From: Candidatus Poribacteria bacterium
GTDB lineage: Bacteria; Poribacteria; WGA-4E; PCPOR2b
Length of the DNA: 64,000 nt
Assembly (NCBI GenBank): GCA_022826645.1
Contig: JAJDUM010000092.1
Span: 1 to 64,000, forward strand
Direction of reading: 5' to 3'
Positions 3,727 through 64,000 of this stretch are shown here, piece by piece. Below the pieces are notes generated by a model. That model saw only the letters and a program-made list of their open reading frames with translations. It was not told the DNA's origin and made no database searches. How positions within the stretch are numbered: position 1 is the first letter of the stretch; each line of letters begins with the position of its first letter. The position numbers and the translations under genes were made by a program.

Positions 3727-4917
3727 TTACAGCCATCCGGCAACTTCCCAGATTACGCTCGATCGGCTGAAGGGTGCATCCTTGAGCGCTTCGACTCCCG
3801 AAATCGGATGTCCCCCATATTTACGCTCATACGCTTCATGGATCTGGCGTTCGAGACCTGTCATTTCCTCAATTGGTAACGTTACCCATGCGCTCCCGCG
3901 TCTGGCGCTCTCTCTAATAGCAATCCACAATTCGAGATCTCGCCGGGCATTGATCGGTCCGTATGCAGGCTCAATACCCTCCGTCACAGCGCGATACATA
4001 CTGTGGAGGATGCTCGCTTTGGCAACGTCGTCCGATGCAGAGATTTTATATTTTGCAAATGGATTTGACCATACGATCGGCGGAGAGGTGTCTATCCGAA
4101 CATGGTCTAACACCCCTTCGCCGTCAACCTCTGTATAGACATCTTCAATTTGGTAACTTCCGCCATCGTTGTAAAGGGTCAGCTGGTCCCCGGAGAGATG
4201 CCCATCCATGCCCTCAATCTCCCAGTGGCTGCCACGTGCTCCCGGCGGTGGCATCTCGTAGAGGCAGGTGATCCCTCCGGGAAACTCAACGATACCGGAC
4301 TCCCACCACCGTGTCGTCATTGCTTCGTCGCCGTAGCCGGTGTAGGGGTGTGTCGGTGCTTCGGCTGCGTATCCCAAGGCACGTATCGGCTCGCAGCCGA
4401 GGATCATGCGAACCGCGTTGATGCCGTGATAGCTGCCGGATGCGTACCAGAGCCGCGCATGTCGAATCTTTCCGAGTAGCCCTGCTCGGACAATCTTCTG
4501 TTTCAACTGTTCACGGGGCCAATGCCAGACGTTCTCGGCGATTTCGTATTTGACGCCGTTTTCCTGGCACGCCTCGGTTATGGCGTCCGCAATCGGCAAC
4601 GAGACAGCGATGGGAATTTCGGTGATGACGTTGATACGATGTTTGGCGACCGTCATCGCCATAACGTTGAGTGAATCGGTTGGTGTCAGACAAAAGACTA
4701 CATCCGGTTTTTCGGACTGAATCATGTCCTCAACATCTGTGTATTGTGCTGGAATGTCGTAGGTTTCGGCTGCCGCACGGCACGCCTCGGCATTTCTGTC
4801 GCAGATAGCGCAGAACGTATAGAGGTCGGTCAGTTTCTTAATGACCGCTTGATAGCCGCGCGAGCGGGAGGTTTCGTAAGCCCCCGCACCGATTACAGCG
4901 ATTCGTAAAGGGTTCAT
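3727..4917 (-). CDS. Gfo/Idh/MocA family oxidoreductase
   Basis: A 396-residue dinucleotide-dependent oxidoreductase. ATG 4917 was chosen over the upstream TTG because GGAGA lies 7 bases before it. The Rossmann motif VIGAGAYETSRSRG is slightly unusual, with extra residues after the glycine motif as in a subset of this family. The family signature appears as TEIPIAVSLP, with Ile-Pro where EKP is usual, so the canonical catalytic-site Lys is absent or displaced. The C-terminal half contains a YASGSYHGINAVR segment with a possible catalytic His. It may be a diverged member or have another activity. It is a separate unit from the oxidoreductase at 2494-3507. Confidence 0.8.
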   Translation of the reverse strand: MNPLRIAVIGAGAYETSRSRGYQAVIKKLTDLYTFCAICDRNAEACRAAAETYDIPAQYTDVEDMIQSEKPDVVFCLTPTDSLNVMAMTVAKHRINVITEIPIAVSLPIADAITEACQENGVKYEIAENVWHWPREQLKQKIVRAGLLGKIRHARLWYASGSYHGINAVRMILGCEPIRALGYAAEAPTHPYTGYGDEAMTTRWWESGIVEFPGGITCLYEMPPPGARGSHWEIEGMDGHLSGDQLTLYNDGGSYQIEDVYTEVDGEGVLDHVRIDTSPPIVWSNPFAKYKISASDDVAKASILHSMYRAVTEGIEPAYGPINARRDLELWIAIRESARRGSAWVTLPIEEMTGLERQIHEAYERKYGGHPISGVEALKDAPFSRSSVIWEVAGWL

Positions 4918-5024
4918 CAATCGTTCTCCGAATGAGTGAAATTATTGAAGCAAGTTGGGATTTCGAGAGGATAAGTCTTCATGGTTTAATCGCGTAATGC
5001 GTAATACGTAAGGAGGTTATTTTT

Positions 5025-6020
5025 TTAACGATTCCTTCCGGACAGCGTTTGGATCAACCACGGCAGTGATTGTTCCCCTGAAAAGAGGTGTCCGGCATCA
5101 AATTCTTGGAGTGTGATCTGATCGTTGGCATTCGCAGCACGGTAGATCCGCTGTGTCATCCCAAAGGCGGGGTGTACCGGGCGGCTAACGTCCTCTGTCC
5201 CCCATTCCACAAAGATTGGGCGCGGCGCGATGAGTCCCGCGATATCGGGCATCTCACAAAGTTCGCCGATGCCTTTCGGGTGATGGCAGACACAGTGTCC
5301 AAACCATGAGGTCTGTGCAAAGGTAGTAAAATAGCCACTCAACACCGCTGCCTGAACCCGCTCATCCAGTGCGGCGTGGACGATGCCGAGCCAGCACCCG
5401 CCGGACAAGCCTGCAATCCCGATCCGCGTTTTGTCTACCTCCGGCAGGCTTTGGAGATAGTCCACACCCCGCATTAGATCGTAGACCCGATAGCCTGTCA
5501 GATCGTATCCGAGATAGTTCAGGCGTCGCCAGAGGAAGTCACAACCGCCCGACGGGTGAGCGCGTTCGCCCATACCAGCGTTATCGGGACACAGTGTGAT
5601 AACACCCTGCTCCGCGAGATCTCGACCGTAGGGGGAACCGAACTCTCCATCACCGGAGATGACACTCTCTTTGCCGTCCGGCACATGTCCGTGGATGCAG
5701 AGAACAGCTGGCGTCTTTGCCGTCGCGCCCTTAGGGATTGATAGATAAGCGGGGATCGGCGTGTCCGCTCGCGAATGGTAGATCACTTTGTGGATCGTAA
5801 TCTTATCGGACGATTCAGTAGCGACGATCCGCGGATTTAGGGGAACCGCTTCGTCCGGGAAAGGTCCAAGCTGCTCTCGCAGTTCGGGGAGCAGTTGGGC
5901 TCGCCAATCCTGCCACGCATCAACCGTATCCCCATCAAACGATAAACGGGGGCTGTGGTTTGGGAAATTGTGATCGAGTAACTCTGCCGATGAAAGCTGT
6001 ATTTCAGATGGTGGAGACAT
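5025..6020 (-). CDS. Alpha/beta hydrolase (acetyl xylan esterase-like dienelactone hydrolase family)
   Basis: A 331-residue serine hydrolase without a signal peptide, so probably cytoplasmic. Visible features: CIHGH oxyanion-hole region around residue 111, nucleophile elbow GLSGG near residue 206, an acidic residue after WGTEDVSRP, and the catalytic His in DAGHLF near the C-terminus. This order and the long N-terminal cap match the Abhydrolase_7/acetyl-xylan-esterase-like group, which acts on ester bonds of plant or algal polymers; the exact substrate is unknown. It is flanked by repeat DNA at 6044-6178 upstream and runs in the same direction as the oxidoreductase genes. Confidence 0.8.
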   Translation of the reverse strand: MSPPSEIQLSSAELLDHNFPNHSPRLSFDGDTVDAWQDWRAQLLPELREQLGPFPDEAVPLNPRIVATESSDKITIHKVIYHSRADTPIPAYLSIPKGATAKTPAVLCIHGHVPDGKESVISGDGEFGSPYGRDLAEQGVITLCPDNAGMGERAHPSGGCDFLWRRLNYLGYDLTGYRVYDLMRGVDYLQSLPEVDKTRIGIAGLSGGCWLGIVHAALDERVQAAVLSGYFTTFAQTSWFGHCVCHHPKGIGELCEMPDIAGLIAPRPIFVEWGTEDVSRPVHPAFGMTQRIYRAANANDQITLQEFDAGHLFSGEQSLPWLIQTLSGRNR

Positions 6021-6043
6021 GGCTTAAATTTCTTTCTATATAG

Positions 6044-6178
6044 AACGTAAGTTGCTAGAGAATCTGTAGATTCTGTACACCTGTCGGCCCACTGGGGCTA
6101 TGGGTCGGGCAAGATGCCCGACCTACAAGGTATAGGGATCAATTTTATCGTGCCGCACATTACCAGCAACTTAGATTA
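6044..6178. repeat. Palindromic intergenic repeat unit with AAGTTGCTAG ends
   Basis: Opposed motifs AACGTAAGTTGCTAGAG (6044-6060) and CAGCAACTTAG (6164-6174) bracket two variants of repeats found elsewhere: CTGTCGGCCCACTGGGGCT (compare 2229-2246) and GTCGGGCAAGATGCCCGAC (compare 20416-20440). The stop of the DUF5916 gene abuts the right end. Similar AAGTTGCTAG ends occur near 123-139, 2067, 11580, 31385 and 56405. Confidence 0.65.
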
Positions 6179-8434
6179 CTAGAGATTCCAGAGATAAGAA
6201 ACTTTGAACACCACGACTCTATCGCCTAACTGTAACTCCCCTTTATTGGTGCGCCAATCCTCATTATACGCAAGGAAGATATGGCTTTTAGGGCTATATT
6301 CCCAACCGAAGAGGGTACTGACTAGATAGTTCTCATGGGTTTGAATCTGATAAAAAGCGGTGCGCTCACGCCCCGCTTGCGTAAATACCCTAAGAAACAG
6401 ATCCCGTGTAAACAGATAGGTGACGCGCAGAGAACTTGTGAAATACCGTCCATCGATGACATCAGCCTGCGTCAAACTCAGGGCATACCCACTTTCAAGG
6501 TCAATGGTGAAATTGCTCTGCGGACGGATAGTGGTTGAGAGGGCAAGCAGCCGTTGTTTCCCCACCGCTTGCCGTGAGAAATTGAAGTAGTTTCCTATCC
6601 CCCCATCCAAGCCAACGGAAACGGGTCGCGAAGTGTTTGTTAGAATCGAAAATTCATATCCGTCTGTCGTAAATACCTCCGTCAGTTCGACCTCGCGACT
6701 GCGTCCATAAAACACGCCAATGACCTCCCAGAAGGATTCAGTGGGTCTCCAATCCGCCGAAGTTCTGAAGTTCCAACTGATTGAATCTTCATCAAATTCC
6801 GGTGAAAGGGTTAGACCCGGATTGTCCCATTTCCAATCGTCAAAATATTTATCAGTGAACAGTCCCTGAGAAACCCTGCCGCTGACACCGAAGGAAGCAC
6901 GATGCGGTCCGAACCGAGGGATATAGGTCCCCATGAAATTCATCTGCTGCCAACCGCGGTATCTCTCTTTCCGGAGGAATCCCGTTTCATTTGCTTCAAA
7001 TAGGGGATCAATTCGTTCCATCCGCACTCTGGCGTTCCAGAGGTAGTTGCTTTGAGCAAGTTCGACGAGGTACGCTTTATTGTTTGCGTTTTCGCTGACA
7101 TTCTCTGGATCTTCGCTGGGATTAAAACTCATCGCATATTGTCCCGACAACCGATAGGTTTTCAGAAAGAACAGATCGGTGTCGAATCCTCCCACTCGAC
7201 CGTAGCCATTTTCCTCCTCAAGATGCTCTTTGTTGGCGAAGATCAGACCAACGCTGGAGCGTTGCAGGATATCCTTCTTCAGCCGGACCGTCGAATATAA
7301 CGCCTCCTCCTTGGCTTGGGACTCTTGGCCAATTTCCAGCGCCCCGAAGCTGCCTGTTTGGCTGCCGAGGATACCGAGGGAATAGCTGCCGACCTTGCCG
7401 GTCATTTTACTACCCCAAAGGATATCACCCCGACTGCCGATCCGCCGACTGTAAAAGAGTTCTAACGGTGTCTCAAAAAAGCTGTTTCCCTCGACAAAGA
7501 AAGGACGGCGCTCCGGGAAACGGGTTGGAAAGCGAGTCAGGTTAATCTCCAGCTGATCCGCCTCTACTTGTGCAAAATCTGGGTTAACGGTGACGTTTGT
7601 CTTGAGTGTACTTGTCAGATTATACTGAACATCGAGTCCTGTTCCTAATTGACCGTCGAGTGATTCCTTGTCGGACACTCCGCTTAAGGCATAGGGCGAA
7701 ATTTCAAAGGGCTTACTACCGCCGATGTCCTTCAGTCCCACCATAAGCCCGAGATCGGACATCCGTGTGGTCGCTCCGGCTTGGGTCATCTGCTTCCAAA
7801 CGGTGACCTCATCTTTTCTGCGATGCACCCGTTCAACGTCGAATCCCCATACCTGTTCCGATTTATTGGGGAAACGAAAATTTGCGAACGGGATCTTGAA
7901 TTCAGCGACCCACCCTTGTTCATCAATGCCTGTTTCTAGCCACCAGATACCTCTCCAGCTGGAGTCGGAGCGGATGTCGTCGAAACGGTAGGCATCGCTC
8001 TGGACGCCGCCGGGTGTGGTCGCAAACTTATAGCCGGTGCGATGATCATGATGCGGGTCCATGAAAAAGGATATTACGTCTGAGTCGTAGATGTTTCCAC
8101 CCCGTCGGACAATGCGGTTGACAACCTTATCAGGTGATGCATCATAGCACCGGAAGGCGACGTAGAGGTGGTGCGGGTCGTAAGCGATGTAAAACGCTGT
8201 ATCATCGGTGGCGGGTTTGCCCCGATCTGGCACGAGTTGGATGAAGCCGCTTACAGGCTTTGCCTTTTGCCACGCAGGGTCATCGAGTTTTCCGTCGATC
8301 TTCGGGGCAGGGACTCCGGGTTCAAGCCGGTAGGCTTCTACAACGTATTTTGCCGATCCGGTCTCGTGTGCACACAATGTCCCGGCGAAAAGAATGAGAA
8401 GTACAACAATATTAACAAAGATCCATCTGGGCAT
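6179..8434 (-). CDS. CBM9-like / DUF5916 outer-membrane beta-barrel protein
   Basis: A 751-residue exported protein. An N-terminal signal peptide (hydrophobic residues 6-20 ending CAHE) is followed by a CBM9-like immunoglobulin-fold domain (about 30-215; PKIDGKLDDPAWQKAK is the typical entry motif) and then a long DUF5916 region rich in alternating aromatic beta strands (about 230-751) ending in a C-terminal strand with Trp-Asn-Leu, as in outer-membrane barrels. FFVEGNSFFETP is the plug-like motif typical of DUF5916. The likely role is binding or uptake of carbohydrate at the outer membrane, by family analogy only. SD AAGGAG lies 8 bases before ATG 8434. Confidence 0.88.
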   Translation of the reverse strand: MPRWIFVNIVVLLILFAGTLCAHETGSAKYVVEAYRLEPGVPAPKIDGKLDDPAWQKAKPVSGFIQLVPDRGKPATDDTAFYIAYDPHHLYVAFRCYDASPDKVVNRIVRRGGNIYDSDVISFFMDPHHDHRTGYKFATTPGGVQSDAYRFDDIRSDSSWRGIWWLETGIDEQGWVAEFKIPFANFRFPNKSEQVWGFDVERVHRRKDEVTVWKQMTQAGATTRMSDLGLMVGLKDIGGSKPFEISPYALSGVSDKESLDGQLGTGLDVQYNLTSTLKTNVTVNPDFAQVEADQLEINLTRFPTRFPERRPFFVEGNSFFETPLELFYSRRIGSRGDILWGSKMTGKVGSYSLGILGSQTGSFGALEIGQESQAKEEALYSTVRLKKDILQRSSVGLIFANKEHLEEENGYGRVGGFDTDLFFLKTYRLSGQYAMSFNPSEDPENVSENANNKAYLVELAQSNYLWNARVRMERIDPLFEANETGFLRKERYRGWQQMNFMGTYIPRFGPHRASFGVSGRVSQGLFTDKYFDDWKWDNPGLTLSPEFDEDSISWNFRTSADWRPTESFWEVIGVFYGRSREVELTEVFTTDGYEFSILTNTSRPVSVGLDGGIGNYFNFSRQAVGKQRLLALSTTIRPQSNFTIDLESGYALSLTQADVIDGRYFTSSLRVTYLFTRDLFLRVFTQAGRERTAFYQIQTHENYLVSTLFGWEYSPKSHIFLAYNEDWRTNKGELQLGDRVVVFKVSYLWNL

Positions 8435-56495: not shown

Positions 56496-56574
56496 GGACC
56501 CGTAGTGTAGCCTGGCTTAACACATCTGCCTGTCACGCAGAAGATCGCGAGTTCAAATCTCGTCGGGTCCGCCA
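56496..56574 (+). tRNA. tRNA-Asp (GTC), copy 1
   Basis: Acceptor stem GGACCCG / CGGGTCC pairs perfectly. D stem GTGT/ACAC, anticodon stem TCTGC/GCAGA with loop CTGTCAC (anticodon GTC), T arm GCGAG TTCAAAT CTCGT, discriminator G, and an encoded CCA. Identical to the third tRNA gene of the cluster. Confidence 0.97.
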
Positions 56575-56599
56575 CCTATTCATCTGTTTCATTTAGTAT

Positions 56600-56673
56600 G
56601 GGCGGGTAGCTCAGTTGGCTAGAGCGACGGCCTTACAAGCCGTAGGTCACAGGTTCAAGTCCTGTTCCGCCTA
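56600..56673 (+). tRNA. tRNA-Val (TAC)
   Basis: Acceptor GGGCGGG / TCCGCCT (two G-U pairs), D arm GCTC/GAGC, anticodon stem ACGGC/GCCGT with loop CTTACAA (anticodon TAC), T arm ACAGG TTCAAGT CCTGT and discriminator A. CCA is not encoded, unlike in the flanking tRNA-Asp genes. Confidence 0.95.
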
Positions 56674-56782
56674 TGCCGATTTATTCTCGATTTATCGGGA
56701 TCATTTCTACGATTGCTCCCCGATAAGATCGGGACAACCCGATCATGAAACGTCGGGACCAGAACTAAAAATACCCCTTGTC

Positions 56783-56861
56783 GGACCCGTAGTGTAGCCT
56801 GGCTTAACACATCTGCCTGTCACGCAGAAGATCGCGAGTTCAAATCTCGTCGGGTCCGCCA
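56783..56861 (+). tRNA. tRNA-Asp (GTC), copy 2
   Basis: Identical in sequence to the tRNA-Asp at 56496-56574, including the encoded CCA and a few upstream bases (TGTCGGACCC). The spacer between tRNA-Val and this gene holds two CCGATxxATCGG-like palindromes. A terminator follows seven bases after CCA. Confidence 0.97.
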
Positions 56862-56944: not shown

Positions 56945-58243
56945 TTGTTAGATCTCAGATTTATCCGCGATAACCCCGATGCGGTGCGAGCGATGTTAGC
57001 GGCTCGCCGGATGACAGCACCGTTGGAGGAACTTATTGAAGCAGACCGCAAATGGCGCGAACTATTGGGGGAGGCAGAATCACTCAGAAGTCACCAGAAC
57101 ACCGTCTCGAAAGAGATTGCACAAATCAAGAGGAACAAACAGGACGCCTCCGAGCAGATTGCTGAGATGCGGACGGTGTCTCAGAAAATTAAGACGTTGA
57201 ACGATCAAGCGCAGGGCTATAAAACCGAGGTCGATAAGATTTTAGGGCTTATCCCAAACATGCCGGATGCCAGCACGCCGATCGGGGATAGCGAAGCGGA
57301 TAATCCCGAGATTAGTCGCTGGGGAAAGATCCGAAACTTCGATTTTGAGCCGAAGCCGCACTGGGAACTTGCAGAGGCGTTGGACATCGTCGATTTTCAG
57401 CGGGGGGCGAAGGTCGCCGGCAGCAACTTTGTGTTATACAAAGGGTTAGGGGCGAAATTGGAGCGTGCGTTGATTAACTTTATGCTCGATCTGCATGTCT
57501 CTCAGCACGGGTATACAGAGGTTTCCCCGCCTTTTGTCGCCAACCGTCCAACGATGACGGGCACCGGGCAGCTGCCGAAATTTGAGTCGGATATGTATCG
57601 GTGCGATCGCGACGAAGAGAACGAGGAGATGGATCTCTTTCTCATCCCGACCGCGGAGGTGCCGGTTACCAATATTTTTGCCGAGGAGATTTTGAATGGC
57701 GAGGATCTGCCGATCTACTATACCGCATACACCCCCTGTTTCCGACGAGAAGCGGGTTCTTACGGTCGGGAGACACGCGGATTGCAACGGCTCCACCAGT
57801 TTGATAAGGTCGAGATGGTGAAATTCACCCTACCAGAGACCTCCTACGATGAGCATGAATCGTTGCTGCGTAATGGCGAAGCGGTTTTGCAAGCACTCGA
57901 TCTGCCCTATCGTGTGATCACTCTTTGTACAGCGGACCTCGGATTTAATGCGTCCAAATGTTACGACATTGAATTATGGGCACCGGTTGACGAAAAGTTT
58001 AACTTGGAAATATCTTCGTGCAGTAATTTTGAGGATTTTCAGGCGCGTCGGGCGAATATCCGTTTCCGTCGTGAGCCGGGTGCGAAACCTGAATTGGTGC
58101 ATACCCTGAACGCCTCCGGGACGGCGCTGCCACGATTGGTTATCGCAATCCTCGAAACGTATCAGCAGGAGGATGGGAGCATTCGGATTCCAGAGGCTAT
58201 CGTGCCTTATATGGGTGGAGTTGAGGTGATTGAATTGGCGTGA
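56945..58243 (+). CDS. serS: Seryl-tRNA synthetase
   Basis: Class II aminoacyl-tRNA synthetase of 432 residues, start TTG 56945. AGGAGG lies eight bases upstream and the resulting N-terminus (M)[17 protein letters not shown] is canonical. An out-of-frame ATG directly abuts the SD and would stop after four codons. The N-terminal coiled-coil arm (about 30-105) binds tRNA-Ser; motif 2 contains [20 protein letters not shown] and motif 3 [19 protein letters not shown]. Motif 3 has Ala-Ser-Gly-Thr-Ala-Leu-Pro where most SerRS have GxSGxAxGR-like text, a small deviation. Confidence 0.96.
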
Positions 58244-58614
58244 TGGGTGGAAAATTTTGTTAGAGTCTGTTTTTGAATGCTCAAGGGAATTGCATCTATA
58301 TTGCCCCGATGCTGCATCGGGATTCAAAGCAATCTGAATCACAGATCCAACGGATTGAGCGGAGAACACGGATAAGACTGAAAACCTCCTGTCGGGGCAG
58401 GTCTTGTGTTTGTCCAAAGGCAATCAGTGATGAGCAAGTTCGTAAAGATGCTAAGGCACTGACCATCAAATGGCACTCACCGGCATATAACTCATCGAAC
58501 ATTAAGACTTACAATGGTCAGCAACTCAAAGTTGTGAACCTAGGTGAACGCGGTGACTTATGTGTGGCTCTAATGATGTAAAAGAAAAATGCTCCCAGAT
58601 TATGGAGGTAAACG
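58244..58614. other. Intergenic region between serS and the accessory island
   Basis: About 370 bases with a palindrome CCCGATGCTGCATCGGG (58305-58321) and a stretch GATCCAACGGATTGAGCGGA. A 102-codon frame (58273-58581) crosses the repeats and has no SD, so I do not call it. The DNA becomes visibly more AT-rich towards the next gene. Confidence 0.5.
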
Positions 58615-59193
58615 ATGACTAATCAGAGCATTCAGGCTTACGTTTGTGAGATTCAAGATACATTGACAGAGTTTGCATCACTTCCCGAAACACAGCAAAA
58701 ATTGGCTGATGCTAGAGCTGATATTGACTACCATTATAGGTATTGGACAAGTGGAGTAATTCGTCGGATAGGTTATATAGGCGAGGAGAAACGTTTTGAA
58801 GTGCATTCAACATTTCATTACAAAGAAAGACTTTATGATCTCTGCTGGGTCGAAAAAGATGAAGGACTCACGAAAAGCCTACCGCTAGCCCTAGAGTGTG
58901 AGTGGGATCACTCCGGCAACATCAGTAGATACCGCTCCGAAATTGAATACGACTTTGAAAAACTGCTATGGTCATGTGCAGCGCTCCGCGTGATGATCTT
59001 TGAGTGTTGGTATCCAAATGATCCTGCCGATACCGTAAAACAGAAAGCGAAAGAGGAAATAGAAAATCTCATCCGTCGTATTGAAGCCTTCATATCTGCC
59101 CAGTCCGCGGCTAACTACCTTTTTTGTGTCGGCTGCACTTATAAAGAAGGTAATGAGTTCATTTTCTGTCGTTATCCCGCCGAAGAAAGTTAG
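58615..59193 (+). CDS. Putative PD-(D/E)XK nuclease-like protein of the accessory island
   Basis: A 192-residue protein; SD TGGAGG precedes ATG. The central part reads LALECEWDHSG (Glu94, Glu96) followed by IEYDFEKLLWSCAALRVMIFE. A conserved acidic pair, then a D-F-x-K-L helix and a hydrophobic strand, is a pattern I associate with PD-(D/E)XK-fold proteins in restriction neighbourhoods. No exact family is recognised. It is the first gene of a plus-strand island with DUF262 and HNH genes, supporting a defence role by context. Confidence 0.6.
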   Translation: MTNQSIQAYVCEIQDTLTEFASLPETQQKLADARADIDYHYRYWTSGVIRRIGYIGEEKRFEVHSTFHYKERLYDLCWVEKDEGLTKSLPLALECEWDHSGNISRYRSEIEYDFEKLLWSCAALRVMIFECWYPNDPADTVKQKAKEEIENLIRRIEAFISAQSAANYLFCVGCTYKEGNEFIFCRYPAEES

Positions 59194-59304
59194 AGGAACA
59201 CATTATAGATTTTTATTATGGTTGCTGAATTATACCATAATACCGCGTTACAAAGCGCTGAGCATTCAACTGTGTAACTCTTACCTGTAAAGGAGAAAAC
59301 AAAC

Positions 59305-60816
59305 ATGACTGATATAATCCATCAAGATATTGAATTAGATGGTGCGGACGAAGGAGATTGGGAAGGACTTACTAGCAAGGAGAGGGTTGTTCCTATCCCT
59401 ATTGATCGCACTTTAGCCGATTGGAAGCGTTTATCTGATGATGGTGACATACTCGATACGGATTGGCAACGCGAAGACGTTGTATGGGATGATAAAAGAG
59501 CCTCACGTCTCATTGAGTCGTTTCTGATAGACCTACCAGTTCCTGCCATCTACTTAGCTCGGAATGATAATCAGGAGTTTGAGGTTATTGATGGATTGCA
59601 GCGATTAACTTCTGTATTTAGATTTCTTGAGGGTAAACTTAAATTAAAAGGGTTAGAAGCAAGAGCGGATCTCAATGGTTGCTATTTTAATAATTTGGAA
59701 AAAGGTCTACGAAAGAAATTACTCAACTCTGTCCTCCGAACCATTGAATTATATCAACCATCTGATGGAAACTTAAAATATGTGATGTTTCAACGGTTGA
59801 ATACCGGCGGGGTTGCTCTCAATGATATGGAAATCAGAAACTGTGTATATCAAGGGGAGTTAAACAATTTGATTAAGGAGTTAGCACAAAACCAAGACTT
59901 CAAAGACAGCGTGAATCAAACAAACCTTGGTAGAAGAATGAGAGATCGCAGGCTTGTTCTAGGGTTTCTGGCTTTCTACGAAAGGACGTATACCAAAGCC
60001 ACGAAGGGGTTGAAGGCATTTTTTAACGAGTTTTGTGAAATCTATAGAAACCCAACACCAGAAAAATTAGAGGAGTTTAGGAATAAGTTTAATTTTGCAA
60101 TGAAAGCCACACGCACAATCTTTGGAGAGAGCGTGTTTAGATCTACACCCAAAAGCAGGAGTGTCAATGCGCCGATTTTCCAAGTGATATGTGTTTCTTT
60201 CACTAACTATGATCAGGAGGCACTTATTCACGCTGCTGCTGATATTCGTGCAGCATATCATGACCTGATTAAGAATGACAGCCATTGGGTAAATTGTGTT
60301 AGCACATCTACAGGGACCTGGGACCGTATCTCATATACTTTTGAAACTTGGAACGAGAGATTAAAGCAAGTTATGGAGAATGTTGAACCCCAATTGGAGC
60401 ATCGTCATTACAATGCTATACGCTCGAAGGGTGAAACACCTCCCCCAACCGATCAGAAGCGTCCAAGAACAAAACCAACGGTAATGACATTTAACGGTCA
60501 TCGAGATGATACGGTTAAGAAGTGGTCTCAGTGTTTAACAAAATTGTGTGATGCCTTGTTTGAACTTCACCCAGGACGATTTTCAGAGGTATTAGAACTT
60601 AAGTTTCAAGGAAAAAAGGTTCTTCGCGCTTCAAAAAATCGCGGGGATCTTATAAACGAGGTAGATCCTAAAACTCATACAAGAGTTCATTTTATACCTC
60701 AAGCAGGTATTTATATTTATAAGGACCTCAGTCAGAAGGATGTAAAATGGGCTATGAAGTGTCTTGCTACGCACTTTGGACATAGCGAGCCTGAAATAGA
60801 GGAGAGGAGTGTTTGA
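59305..60816 (+). CDS. DUF262-domain (GmrS/ParB-like) protein with restriction-associated C-terminal domain
   Basis: A 503-residue protein with SD AAAGGAG. The N-terminal DUF262 domain (about 30-250) shows DWQREDVVWDDKRASRLIES and VIDGLQRLTSVFRF (DGLQR 96-100, usually DGQQR), the ParB/Srx-like NTPase site; MFQRLNTGGVALNDMEIRNC follows. A central helical region (250-400) is typical. The last 100 residues (WSQCLTKLCDALFELHPGRF to GIYIYKDLSQKDVK) resemble a small module seen in some restriction-linked proteins. GmrSD enzymes cut modified DNA using a DUF1524 nuclease; here the partner nuclease seems to be the separate HNH protein. Confidence 0.85.
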   Translation: MTDIIHQDIELDGADEGDWEGLTSKERVVPIPIDRTLADWKRLSDDGDILDTDWQREDVVWDDKRASRLIESFLIDLPVPAIYLARNDNQEFEVIDGLQRLTSVFRFLEGKLKLKGLEARADLNGCYFNNLEKGLRKKLLNSVLRTIELYQPSDGNLKYVMFQRLNTGGVALNDMEIRNCVYQGELNNLIKELAQNQDFKDSVNQTNLGRRMRDRRLVLGFLAFYERTYTKATKGLKAFFNEFCEIYRNPTPEKLEEFRNKFNFAMKATRTIFGESVFRSTPKSRSVNAPIFQVICVSFTNYDQEALIHAAADIRAAYHDLIKNDSHWVNCVSTSTGTWDRISYTFETWNERLKQVMENVEPQLEHRHYNAIRSKGETPPPTDQKRPRTKPTVMTFNGHRDDTVKKWSQCLTKLCDALFELHPGRFSEVLELKFQGKKVLRASKNRGDLINEVDPKTHTRVHFIPQAGIYIYKDLSQKDVKWAMKCLATHFGHSEPEIEERSV

Positions 60817-60881
60817 GGTAAAAGTAAAGGCAGACTTACTGGTTATTCCTGCGCTGTGGCGGAAATACAAGGAATGGCGAT

Positions 60882-61322
60882 TTGAGCCAGATTAAAAAGA
60901 CAATGACTTTGCCAGTTTGGGTAATACAACGTATGTTGAATAAAAAGTCCTTACCAGATCGGATGATACGACGCATTCTGATCGCTGAGTTCGGTGCCCG
61001 GTGTTGGGGCTGTGGTTTTGTGCCTCCCGCTGGCTTTAGTGTATTGGGATTTGCCTTTACAATGCCTGATGATCGATACCTTGAACTCGACCATATATAT
61101 CCAGATTCACACGGAGGATCGGGAGATCTTCATAATCGAGCGTTATTGTGCACTCCTTGTAACCGAATGAAGTCAAACTCTCTTACCTTATTTGAATTAC
61201 AGGAAAGAAATAGATGGGATGGTTTCGTAAAACAAGAGCCACTTATTAACCTTCAGCAAGCGTATCAATGGTTGGAGGGCTTTAAGCCATATCAACTAGA
61301 GTTACTTGAAAACCTCCGATAA
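60882..61322 (+). CDS. HNH endonuclease
   Basis: A 146-residue HNH nuclease. Zinc-binding CWGC (41-44) and CTPC (90-93) flank the catalytic LELDHIYPDSHGG (Asp70-His71) and NRALL/CNRMKS (Asn85, Asn94). The likely start is TTG 60882 with AAGGA eight bases upstream; ATG 60903 has no SD. It lies 65 bp after the DUF262 gene on the same strand. A 28-codon frame (GTG 60809 to TAA 60895) bridges the two genes but is not supported otherwise. Together with DUF262 it may form a split GmrSD-like modification-dependent system. Confidence 0.9.
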   Translation: MSQIKKTMTLPVWVIQRMLNKKSLPDRMIRRILIAEFGARCWGCGFVPPAGFSVLGFAFTMPDDRYLELDHIYPDSHGGSGDLHNRALLCTPCNRMKSNSLTLFELQERNRWDGFVKQEPLINLQQAYQWLEGFKPYQLELLENLR

Positions 61323-61374
61323 CAACCCTTATCGGACATCGTTGTGAAAGAACAGTCGCAAAAAGCGATAAAAG

Positions 61375-61444
61375 CCCCAAGGCAGACACACATCCCAATG
61401 CCTCCCTTGGGGGTGAAACTTCAGAGGTGGGGATTTGAAAGGAG
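61375..61444 (+). promoter_or_regulatory. Structured leader of the 78-residue small protein, repeated at 62352-62395
   Basis: A hairpin CCCCAAGG (61375-61382) / CCTTGGGG (61405-61412) leads into GAAACTTCAGAGGTGGGGAT and TTGAAAGGAG, the SD of the next gene. A nearly identical 44-base segment (CCTCCCTTG, GAAACTTCA, GGGGATTTGAAAGGAG) precedes the gene at 62403. The function is unknown; it could be a common translation-control leader or simply a duplicated upstream region. Confidence 0.5.
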
Positions 61445-61453
61445 ATAAGAGTA

Positions 61454-61690
61454 ATGAATACTCTTGATGAACTTCGCAGTAATATCCAAGCTGTAAAAGT
61501 GGCACTACGACAGGTAGAGGATACTCTCGACACAGGTTTTGAATTAAAACATCGGGAAGCTGTTCTTGACTTTGAGGCAGAAACCCGCATCCTACTCGGC
61601 AGACTAAAAGCAAGCTTCCACGACGCAATCAAGCCCATCACAGAAGAAGATATAAAAACGTGCATGGCGAAGATTGAAGAGAACTATTGA
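61454..61690 (+). CDS. Small helical protein of the accessory island
   Basis: A 78-residue protein with the SD AAGGAGA. The sequence is almost entirely helical and charged (LRSNIQAVKVALRQVEDTLDT, then HREAVLDFEAETRILLGRLK), a likely coiled coil. No family is recognised. It lies 131 bp after the HNH gene and shares a leader with the gene at 62403. Confidence 0.6.
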   Translation: MNTLDELRSNIQAVKVALRQVEDTLDTGFELKHREAVLDFEAETRILLGRLKASFHDAIKPITEEDIKTCMAKIEENY

Positions 61691-61794
61691 CAAGACTAAA
61701 GCAGCGCTTCACAACTGCCTTGAAAAAGGGGCTGAAACATATCTGATAATTGCGGTTATAGGACATTCACGACACTTACAAGCAGGAGGAATAT

Positions 61795-62322
61795 ATGCAA
61801 TTACGTTTTGACGAATCGCAAATCCGTTACTATGCAGAAAAGTATCTGGAAGACCATCCAGTTTACGACAATTCCGTAAAAAGCATTGTAGGTGAGGTAA
61901 AAGCAAGAGGGTATCTAACAAAATCCGACTTGATAGTACTCTCAGACTGGACAGGGGATCCTCGAAACAAGCTTCGCATCGAAAAGAACTCCAGCATCTC
62001 CATCGAAGATATTACACGAATCGCTCTAAGCCCGGACACGGCTGAACCCGACGGAATCAACAGCAGCCTACAGCTGTACGGTGCTGGCCCAACAATCGCT
62101 TCCGCAATCTTACACTGGTTTCACAAAGATTGTTACCCTATTTGGTCCAAACCTGCCAGGTACAGTGTTCACCTCAACGAAATTAGATACACATCAAAAC
62201 TCAAGCCCGAAGAGTGGGCAGTCTATGTCTCATTTTGTAGATGTTTAGCGAAGAAAAACAAAGTAAATATGCGAACTTTGGACAGAGCACTCTGGAAATA
62301 CGGGAAACACCGAGGAGCATAA
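61795..62322 (+). CDS. Helix-hairpin-helix-like protein of the accessory island
   Basis: A 175-residue protein. LQLYGAGPTIASAILHWFHK (92-111) followed by DCYPIWSKPA resembles the helix-hairpin-helix of HhH-GPD DNA glycosylases (xGxGxxxAxxIL), though the catalytic Lys/Asp segment is not obvious. An upstream AGGAGG precedes ATG. It could bind damaged or modified DNA. The setting next to DUF262 and HNH genes supports a DNA-related role; the exact function is unknown. Confidence 0.6.
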   Translation: MQLRFDESQIRYYAEKYLEDHPVYDNSVKSIVGEVKARGYLTKSDLIVLSDWTGDPRNKLRIEKNSSISIEDITRIALSPDTAEPDGINSSLQLYGAGPTIASAILHWFHKDCYPIWSKPARYSVHLNEIRYTSKLKPEEWAVYVSFCRCLAKKNKVNMRTLDRALWKYGKHRGA

Positions 62323-62332
62323 TTCGCCACGA

Positions 62333-62395
62333 AGGAGGACGCCTCCTCACACCTCCCTTGTGACGAAACTTCAAAAGATGGGGATTTGAAAGGAG
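62333..62395 (+). promoter_or_regulatory. Structured leader of the 84-residue small protein
   Basis: A tight hairpin AGGAGG-ACG-CCTCCT (62333-62347) sits before the copy of the repeated leader segment (62352-62395) ending in TTGAAAGGAG. The hairpin arms are SD and anti-SD-like, but the SD actually used (AAGGAG 62390-62395) is outside it. Confidence 0.45.
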
Positions 62396-62402
62396 TTGTA
62401 AA

Positions 62403-62657
62403 ATGGTAGAAGTAATTGTTTCAACAATAAAGCCTGACATGGGAAAGTTAAAGGACGAGAAAGCACTGCTGCGTACCGAAATAGAAAGCACACCTTGGGG
62501 TGGGACTGAAGAGTTGCTGTTGGAGTACGCGGACAAGTGCGAGGCTCTAGGGCACAGGTTCCGGCAAGAAGGCTATGAAAAGCGTGCAAAATATGAATTT
62601 GAAGAGGCAACTCAGGCTCGAAAGAACGCAGCGTTAAATTACCATAATGTCCGATAA
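62403..62657 (+). CDS. Small helical protein of the accessory island
   Basis: An 84-residue protein with SD AAGGAG. It is helical and charged (KLKDEKALLRTEIEST and CEALGHRFRQEGYEKRAKYE). No family is recognised; the C-terminal helix pair resembles a short TPR-like unit. It belongs to the same plus-strand series and shares its leader with the gene at 61454. Confidence 0.55.
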   Translation: MVEVIVSTIKPDMGKLKDEKALLRTEIESTPWGGTEELLLEYADKCEALGHRFRQEGYEKRAKYEFEEATQARKNAALNYHNVR

Positions 62658-62696
62658 CGTGAATTATCGGGCGTTGCTTTGAAAGGAGACTGTAAA

Positions 62697-62900
62697 ATGA
62701 ATTCTTATACAATAAAATCTAAAGGCATTACAAAGGCGATAGTGGATTTAGATGAGGTTCTGTCTGTGCATGCCGTGCCGGAGGCAGGGCGTCCTTTTAT
62801 TGAAATACAATTCAAAGGGGATAAGCGTCCCCTTCACGTTGATGTGGATCGGGACGAAATGACATACATAATGAATAATCTAAATGAGCGTTTGAAATGA
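62697..62900 (+). CDS. Small protein of the accessory island
   Basis: A 67-residue protein from ATG 62697 (SD AAAGGAG; the TTTGAAAGGAG and TGTAAAATG context is like that of the preceding gene). The pattern SKGITKAIVDLDEVLSVHAV then GRPFIEIQFKGDKRPLHVDV suggests a small beta-sheet protein. No family is recognised. The C-terminal Asp/Asn-rich helix (DEMTYIMNNLNERL) is typical of small domain ends. Confidence 0.55.
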   Translation: MNSYTIKSKGITKAIVDLDEVLSVHAVPEAGRPFIEIQFKGDKRPLHVDVDRDEMTYIMNNLNERLK

Positions 62901-62945
62901 AAACTCTGTTTGTATCGGATTAAATAATGAAGGGGGATTATTATC

Positions 62946-63074
62946 ATGGATAGCGAGAGAAAATCAGCTGAAATGCTAATGGAGTTGAGTTCGTTACATA
63001 GTCCTATTTCTGGACAGGTTGATGCTACAATTGATTCCGCCGGAGTTTTTATCGGGCTTCCGAGAACTTATTAA
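62946..63074 (+). CDS. Very small protein (42 residues) ending at the insertion site
   Basis: ATG 62946 with SD AAGGGGG; 42 residues ending in GVFIGLPRTY and TAA 63072-63074. The stop is immediately followed by CTAG, the insertion site of the IS element and, originally, the edge of the MITE. No family is recognised. It may be a genuine mini-gene or the truncated start of a longer one cut by the MITE. Confidence 0.4.
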   Translation: MDSERKSAEMLMELSSLHSPISGQVDATIDSAGVFIGLPRTY

Positions 63075-63078
63075 CTAG

Positions 63079-63884
63079 GTTCTGTTGACATTTCATCGTA
63101 ACCAGATAATGGTAGCCACGAAACTCAAAAATCCCATATACCGAACCGCTAACTTATCAAAACGAGCGGAAATACGTCGATACTGCTTCATTTTGTTGAT
63201 GAAACATTCGACTAAATGCCTCTCTTTATACAGATTCACATCATAAGTGCGTGAATCCCGACGGTTGGCACGTGGCGGTATCACCGGCACCGCACCCGTG
63301 TCGGTAATCGACTCAATGAATGCCATCGAGTCATATGATGTATCGGCTATCACATACGCACTGCTGTAACCGTCAATCAATGCTTCAGCACAAGTGATGT
63401 CGTGCCGTTGACCGGCTGTCAACATAAAACGTAAGGGATTGCCTAAGCCATCAACAGCGATATGAATCTTGGTTGAAAAGCCACCCCGGCTGCGTCCGAG
63501 TGCTTGACAGGCTTGACCGCCACTTGTGTTCAAAGCACCCCCAGCACAGGGGTGGGCACGAATAGTAGTGGTATCAATGATCAGCCACTCCAGGTCGGGG
63601 TCTTTGGCACAGTGTTGGTGCAACCGTTGAAAGATACCTTTATTACACCAGCGAGCGAATCGTTTATAGATGCTGTTCCAATTGCCATACTGTTTAGGTA
63701 ACAGACGCCATTGACTGCCGCTACGAGTTATCCAAAGCACCGCTTGGATAAACCGTTTTAAGCGAGTTTCCTGTCCGGTGTAGAGGTCGGGACAGGTGTT
63801 AAGGAATGCTACTATTTTTGACCATTGCGTATCGGATAAGGTAAGTGTAGACATACCCTTATTATACACAAATGTCAACACGCC
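63079..63884 (-). mobile_element. IS5-family insertion sequence (806 bp) flanked by CTAG duplications
   Basis: Imperfect inverted ends G-TTC-TGTTGACATTT (63079-63093) and, inward from the right, G-GCG-TGTTGACATTT (63870-63884). CTAG occurs on both sides (63075-63078 and 63885-63888), consistent with a 4-bp target duplication, although a 2-bp TA duplication cannot be excluded. Length and transposase fit IS5/IS427-type elements. The element appears intact. Confidence 0.85.
63093..63854 (-). CDS. IS5-family transposase
   Basis: DDE transposase of 253 residues from ATG 63854. The N-terminal helix-turn-helix-like segment (LSDTQWSKIVAFLN) is followed by WLIIDTTTIRAHPCAGGA (first Asp), GRSRGGFSTKIHIAVDGLGNP, YVIADTSYDSMAF (second Asp) and YKERHLVECFINKMKQYRRI, the Y-(2)-R-(3)-E signature with the catalytic Glu. 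It catalyses transposition of the element at 63079-63884. The stop codon lies at the edge of the left inverted repeat. Confidence 0.92.
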   Translation of the reverse strand: MSTLTLSDTQWSKIVAFLNTCPDLYTGQETRLKRFIQAVLWITRSGSQWRLLPKQYGNWNSIYKRFARWCNKGIFQRLHQHCAKDPDLEWLIIDTTTIRAHPCAGGALNTSGGQACQALGRSRGGFSTKIHIAVDGLGNPLRFMLTAGQRHDITCAEALIDGYSSAYVIADTSYDSMAFIESITDTGAVPVIPPRANRRDSRTYDVNLYKERHLVECFINKMKQYRRISARFDKLAVRYMGFLSFVATIIWLR

Positions 63885-63980
63885 CTAGTACACCGTCAGA
63901 TAAGTTTTGAAATTATTATATGTGCTATCGTTTGATTTCAATCAATATACACCAGCATAATTTATTGGACAGTGTACTAG
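63885..63980. mobile_element. MITE-like element with CTAGTACAC termini
   Basis: A 96-bp unit with inverted ends CTAGTACACCGTCAGATAAG (63885-63904) and, inward from the right, CTAGTACACTGTCCAATAAA; 16 of 20 bases match. The same family is at 22346-22502. The IS5-type element sits at its left CTAG, so the MITE was present first. It has no coding frame. Insertion at CTAG with TA duplication would suit an IS630/Tc1-type parent. Confidence 0.65.
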
Positions 63981-64000
63981 TATTCGATCGCTGATGATTG

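Follow-up and report, generated by a model that had tools for sequence, protein, structure and literature searches.

What does the AT-rich run of genes behind serS in a contig of Candidatus Poribacteria encode, and do these genes form a single defence system? The stretch analysed here, called the window below, comprises the first 64 kb (64,000 nucleotides) of contig C12 (85.5 kb) in the organism's own genome (G000), and an earlier note had proposed the whole plus-strand run at 58615-63074 as a candidate new defence system. We favour a narrower answer, to which we give a probability of about 0.55: positions 58615-61322 would constitute a three-gene restriction-type cassette, GmrSD-like, in which a DUF262 protein ending in a SeqA-like reader is accompanied by an unfused HNH nuclease and by a 192-amino-acid (aa) protein. 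A defence role of some kind for this cassette is quite probable.

Passages of two articles describe DUF262 in GmrSD, BrxU and SspE as using nucleotides and controlling an HNH-type nuclease on modified DNA (PMC10952713, PMC12707154). In the cassette, the SeqA-like domain at the DUF262 C terminus would bind DNA, with a preference that probably depends on base modification; the DUF262 core would bind or hydrolyse nucleotide and act as the switch that licenses cleavage; and the separately encoded HNH nuclease would cut DNA. The 192-aa protein would join them as a partner of the SeqA-like module and might itself be another nuclease, of the PD-(D/E)XK kind.

The DUF262 protein and its SeqA-like domain

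The central gene (59305..60816; plus strand, as are all three) encodes a 503-aa protein, the DUF262 core of which spans residues 41-358 (59425..60378) and carries the nucleotide motif DGLQR at residue 96. The protein matches Pfam GmrSD_N at 1.4e-22, exceeding the curated cut-off, as well as the PADLOC models NsnA (1.3e-82) and PD-T4-2_A (1.9e-40), and we assign its core to the Menshen/PD-T4-2 group. A phmmer search of the PDB returned no match for the protein, and structure prediction from three sequences gave a mean predicted local distance difference test score (pLDDT) of 35.9.

A DUF262 tree was built from 43 rows (the window, L005-L008, L067-L073, L092, L093, and L106-L134); L105, a second entry of the L093 gene, was omitted, together with weaker loci of the phylum (L009-L022) and matches that had no locus. 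The window core clusters with L092 and L093 with support of 100/100. These two DUF262-HNH fusions, from Candidatus Poribacteria (L092) and Synechococcus sp. BO 8801 (L093), contain the closest cores found (59-60% and 51-53% identity, respectively). Each bears a C-terminal HNH domain (Pfam HNH at 0.0035 in L093, by eye in L092), where the window protein has residues 394-503 instead; their HNH is thus fused, is also of another subtype, and comes without a SeqA-like domain. In addition, L092 is adjoined by a DNA methyltransferase (MTase), whereas none was found in the window's island. At L092:4897-7284, a type II-like DNA MTase is followed directly by the DUF262-HNH fusion, and these two genes could be a compact restriction-modification pair. 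A separate clade of 22 rows is Menshen-like: an OLD-like ATPase follows in 20 of them (recognized by a text pattern), L072 being annotated DUF3696 and the gene picked as next in L116 being unrelated. DUF262 matches were present in 94 of 292 cyanobacterial genomes. A scan of genome contigs relied on two narrow peptide patterns, confirmed 2 of 488 stretches, and hence is no census; viral contigs queried with the DUF262 protein and with an HSDR_N protein carrying the C-terminal domain yielded nothing confirmed.

The C-terminal domain itself (residues 394-503; 60484..60816) was first noticed when the window protein matched two other open reading frames (ORFs) of its own genome, and only within residues 380-491. 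Scored against a profile of 11 other members, the window copy reached 62.1 bits, versus 9.3 for the best of 2000 shuffles, and its membership in this SeqA-like family is firm by sequence comparison. When the family profile (A1) was searched against the PDB, SeqA chains made up matches 1-5 of 7, with SeqA 3sk7 at the top (3.1e-5) and the next ones at 0.23-0.44; an extended domain profile (A5) had lower contrast, with 3sk7 first at 2.9e-5 and chance matches among the other SeqA chains. At a threshold of E 0.1, Pfam SeqA matched 4 of 8 domain members. One member's tblastn search of 72,556 plasmid-collection records produced a single match (E 4e-3), an unannotated Aeromonas gene that we read as seqA. 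Its protein aligned with the SeqA-like family at an HHalign probability of 97.1 (a single protein serving as target), and it scored 39.2 bits in hmmsearch, where 2000 shuffles reached 6.9 at most.

Among 84 genomes of the phylum, the domain was found at 15 places in 11 genomes, joined to N-terminal parts of the HSDR_N (9 places), Mrr (1), DUF262 (1), and TPR-like (1, by eye) types or to unrecognised ones (3). Ten of the 292 Cyanobacteria carry it, eight behind GmrSD-type proteins and two behind ATPase-like proteins. Three of these eight carriers were scanned and all contained GmrSD_N plus GmrSD_C (HNH), i.e., DUF262, HNH, and the SeqA-like domain recur there in one chain; the remaining five were assigned by eye, one of them from a frame of 248 aa. 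The ATPase-like proteins (L095 and L096) end in the SeqA-like domain, one showing a weak AAA_22 match (E 0.026) and the other no Pfam match. The earlier description of a DUF262 protein with a restriction-associated C-terminal module is supported.

The HNH nuclease and the 192-aa protein

The next gene (60882..61322) begins with TTG 65 bases past the DUF262 stop and encodes a 146-aa HNH nuclease with an LDHIYP motif, its DH at residues 70-71, and two CxxC pairs. It matches PF01844 (1.4e-8), HNH_5, and HNH_4 and not PF07510 (DUF1524/GmrSD_C), in agreement with the earlier view that this HNH is of a type other than DUF1524. Over residues 29-134 the protein shares 54, 53, and 49% identity with the HNH portion of MTase-HNH proteins from L081, L082, and L087; such fusions were recognized by Pfam in L081 and in a G022 protein, and by eye in L082 and L087. 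Matches to the window HNH occur in 56 of the 84 phylum genomes, many of them weak and the strong ones mostly in frames of 430-680 codons; the plasmid records held none at E 1e-5. A seemingly stand-alone HNH in G045 was discarded, as by eye it is an MTase-HNH gene split between frames, and a homing HNH was considered and rejected. Pfam revealed no MTase beside the nuclease among the island proteins, the rest of the genome lying outside this search, and tblastn with four MTase-HNH proteins over 58000-64000 recovered the HNH part only, all else being at chance level with no MTase remnant. Because no MTase part was found in the island, we take the HNH gene to be separate, with its motifs present. 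It is putatively linked to the DUF262 gene by the 65-base adjacency and by the use of HNH in two relatives of the same clade.

The first gene (58615..59193) ends 111 bases before the DUF262 gene and encodes the 192-aa accessory protein. Its family was detected in one of the 84 phylum genomes, the organism's own, at two places: in the window (C12) and on contig C42, where a relative with 32-36% identity is separated by 99 bases from a preceding HSDR_N gene that carries the SeqA-like domain. Both members found (2/2) thus adjoin a gene with that domain. A slot in G021 that resembles C42 by its flanking genes holds another HSDR_N gene with the domain and no 192-aa relative. The conserved motifs are LYD, LECEW, and EYDFxKLL, with D75 and E94-x-E96 in both members. 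An ExE occurs in the PD-(D/E)XK core of BamHI, and the succession LYD...LECEW...EYDFxKLL may fit such a core, which would make the protein a possible PD-(D/E)XK nuclease of the D..ExE type. No relative was found in the 72,556 plasmid or 50,697 phage records, nothing was confirmed in two viral-contig scans, and none was found in the 292 Cyanobacteria, for which no positive control existed; a profile search of the PDB gave a single chance-level match (E 0.92).

The serS site and the rest of the island

The GC content of 58615-63074 is 0.422, below that of all 536 overlapping segments of the same length taken in 100-base steps over bases 1-58000 (mean 0.496, standard deviation 0.024, minimum 0.455). 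The island holds plus-strand ORFs of 192, 503, 146, 78, 175, 84, 73, and 42 codons, so that the AT-rich run between serS and an insertion sequence (IS) was correctly described beforehand, as were its flanks. Upstream, tRNA-Asp, tRNA-Val, and tRNA-Asp (56496-56861, found with ARAGORN) are followed by serS (56945..58243, plus strand); downstream, the right edge is an IS4/5-family transposase gene (63093..63881, minus strand; DUF4096 6.1e-21, DDE_Tnp_1 1.9e-17). The IS element has inverted repeats at 63074-63093 and 63870-63889, with CTAG at both outer ends. Because ordinary genes return past it, starting with a rhodanese gene, the foreign stretch spans about 5 kb.

We searched for serS in nine genomes of the family, the organism's own included; seven had a match, that in G017 at 38% only. 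The stretch downstream was compared in the five relatives with full-length matches of 79-97% identity (G015, G016, G020, G021, and G022), in which serS forms the left edge of the site. The site is empty in G016, where the stop of serS and the start of the rhodanese gene overlap. Between the same two genes, G022 contains a GIY-YIG gene, an MTase-HNH gene, a 90-aa AlbA gene, an HSDR_N gene with the SeqA-like domain, and an HSDR_N gene with DUF4268, and G020 contains a GIY-YIG-like gene, a TPR-like gene (by eye), a T5orf172 gene, and an AlbA-HSDR_N-DUF4268 gene. In G021 an HTH gene and a DUF262/DUF1524 gene pair stand behind serS, and the contig stops before any rhodanese; G015 has other genes after serS and no rhodanese within the 7.5 kb examined. 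In G020-G022 the cargo has a GC content of 0.43-0.46, versus 0.51-0.52 for the flanks. As the site is empty in G016 and holds restriction-type genes in G022, G020, and G021, we take the interval between serS and the rhodanese gene to be a defence hotspot, and its presumed restriction or defence character is upheld by these three relatives.

Just behind serS in the window lies the C-terminal remnant of a GIY-YIG gene (58420..58560, plus strand), which by tblastn matches the gene at the same place in G022 (72% identity, E 5e-20) and, more distantly, that in G020 (39%, 1.4e-6); Pfam recognizes GIY-YIG in the G022 gene (8.7e-5) and gives no match for its G020 counterpart. The two HSDR_N genes of G022 (L155) are neighbouring paralogues, at 4342-5325 and 5878-6969 of the reversed locus, which share 213 bases at 94% identity near their starts and end differently, one in the SeqA-like domain and the other in DUF4268; we read this pair as a trace of module swapping. 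At a second slot, flanked by carbohydrate kinase and sugar-isomerase-like genes (named by eye), there are HSDR_N proteins with the SeqA-like domain that differ between two species (L049 on G000 C42 and L045 on G021 C31).

The remaining 78-, 175-, 84-, 73-, and 42-aa ORFs (61454..63074, plus strand) are cargo of the same site, outside the proposed system. The four tiny ones (78, 84, 73, and 42 codons) are open, as had been reported. The 175-aa ORF is likewise present, and its former label 'HhH-like' found no match: neither it nor the tiny ORFs gave a significant match in four libraries (Pfam only for the 42-aa ORF). Members of the 175-aa family occur in 36 of the 84 phylum genomes; the six neighbourhoods read (~5 kb each) are varied, and none contained a gene related to the tiny ORFs or to the DUF262, 192-aa, or HNH protein, and by eye on two lists no DUF262 place in the phylum genomes lies within 20 kb of a 175-aa gene except in the window. 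A relative with 38% identity (7e-13) is encoded on a Deinococcus plasmid. As this family is dispersed in the phylum, we leave the 175-aa gene out of the system, to which it does not appear to be linked. The 78- and 84-aa ORFs each have a leader of ~57 bases in front of them (61388-61444 and 62339-62395, 70% identical) that ends in TGGGGATTTGAAAGGAG; the genome contains three copies of this 17-base core, of which the third (G000:C5:66133) falls, as judged by eye, within the beginning of an 85-aa ORF. Similar stretches at 61315-61350 and 62650-62685, with the palindrome CCGATAA...TTATCGG and no T-run after it, overlap the stops of the HNH and 84-aa ORFs.

Rival readings and known systems

The run of eight genes as one system is rejected, since the 175-aa gene is dispersed and the full set was not found to recur in the 84 phylum genomes, the 292 Cyanobacteria, plasmids, or phages. 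The elements do recur two at a time: DUF262 occurs with HNH, the C-terminal domain is paired with domains of nuclease type, and members of the 192-aa family adjoin a gene carrying the C-terminal domain. Several results weigh against the three-gene cassette as we propose it. The exact set was seen once. The 192-aa protein had no significant family in four libraries (best JetA, E 0.082), which leaves its motifs as the sole basis of the earlier label 'PD-(D/E)XK-like', and its structure prediction from one sequence was a poor model (pLDDT 41.8). Pfam SeqA scored below its curated cut-off wherever bits were shown, and among 12 domain members taken singly, seven ranked SeqA first (two by a slim margin) and five, the window copy included, did not. 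Indeed, the window's C-terminal stretch alone ranks shuffles ahead of SeqA, so that, although the copy is firmly a family member, the profiles support homology to SeqA-C for the family and link the window to SeqA only transitively. SeqA contacts hemimethylated GATC through an RxR loop and a TNTN loop; compared by eye with these residues, RxR is kept in several members and changed in the window, and the TNTN loop is weakly kept. Our literature search turned up no paper naming the contacting residues. The apparent loss of these loops in the window copy weakens the case for methylation reading, though not that for DNA binding, and we consider reading of methylation state by the cassette rather unlikely.

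A further contrary result is that the HNH gene most resembles the HNH portion of MTase-HNH fusions, and G022 has a gene of this type in this very hotspot; the HNH gene could for that reason be independent cargo, derived from such a fusion at the same site, and the system would then consist of the DUF262-SeqA-like protein together with the 192-aa protein as its nuclease. The 192-aa family does pair with the SeqA-like domain at both places found, and at the second (C42:1-8000) no HNH gene was seen in the ORF list, nor did the window HNH give a blastp match there at E 0.1. What speaks for the three-gene cassette instead is that the four MTase-HNH queries recovered the HNH part alone, that the gene follows the DUF262 stop so closely with its CxxC pairs and DH present, and that the two closest DUF262 relatives carry HNH; we consider the two-gene alternative rather unlikely but not negligible. 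The GIY-YIG remnant, the IS element, and the phylum-dispersed 175-aa gene could also suggest an assortment of unrelated remains with no working system; the three main genes, however, are open, co-directional, close together, and equipped with their motifs, which makes such an assortment improbable. SeqA sequesters replication origins, and the domain might accordingly mark replication or methylation housekeeping rather than defence. Yet it ends HSDR_N or Mrr proteins at 10 of its 15 places in the phylum, is patchy (11 of 84 genomes), and at two genomic slots is borne by different proteins in two species, and we regard a housekeeping role as very improbable.

The genes of Menshen are named NsnA-NsnB-NsnC. 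The window core resembles Menshen in its NsnA match, but no OLD-type ATPase was found among the island proteins or between serS and the rhodanese gene, and the core lies in another clade; Menshen is therefore rejected. Its PD-T4-2_A match likewise contrasts with the partner, which in PD-T4-2 is HEPN according to passages of PMC10952713 and in the window is HNH, with no HEPN match among the island proteins; the plasmid loci L067 and L071 are annotated HEPN. According to the same passages of PMC10952713, DUF1524 is absent from the DUF262 systems Menshen, PD-T4-2, and Dazbog. With the type IV systems GmrSD, BrxU, and SspE the window shares DUF262 plus an HNH-type nuclease, and some cyanobacterial GmrSD proteins share the SeqA-like domain, but the window's DUF262 is of another subgroup and its nuclease matches PF01844, not PF07510, and is a separate gene; GmrSD proper is hence rejected, and the composition does differ from GmrSD as the earlier note had claimed. 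Unlike type II restriction-modification, no cognate MTase was found beside the nuclease. Relative to SeqA, the family's C-terminal domain is homologous by profile, but in the window protein DUF262 stands where SeqA has its N-terminal part, and the contact residues do not seem to be retained. In HSDR_N-DUF4268 proteins a C-terminal module occupies the same position, and the adjacent G022 paralogues carry one module or the other, although DUF4268 is a different Pfam family from the SeqA-like domain. The extra GmrSD domains named in passages of PMC4619093 are DUF4268, DUF4357, and DNA_binding_1. Among the papers listed in our literature search, with PMC10354927 (in which 'SeqA-like' and 'restriction endonuclease' both occur) left aside, we found none linking SeqA with GmrSD or HSDR_N; in the one paper mentioning both SeqA and GmrSD, the SeqA passages seen concern SeqA as a fluorescent reporter. 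The parts are known, and their combination is unlike that of the families tested.

A wider proposal, which we put forward tentatively and consider doubtful, is that the SeqA-like domain is a widespread, interchangeable restriction reader, that the two-part DUF262/HNH machinery senses adenine methylation, possibly hemimethylation, and that the 192-aa accessory protein acts on the domain. DUF262 systems have the switch in common and differ in their choice of DNA. If the proposal is true, a SeqA-like module attached to HSDR_N, Mrr, GmrSD, and Menshen-type DUF262 proteins would be a common answer to the question of target choice.

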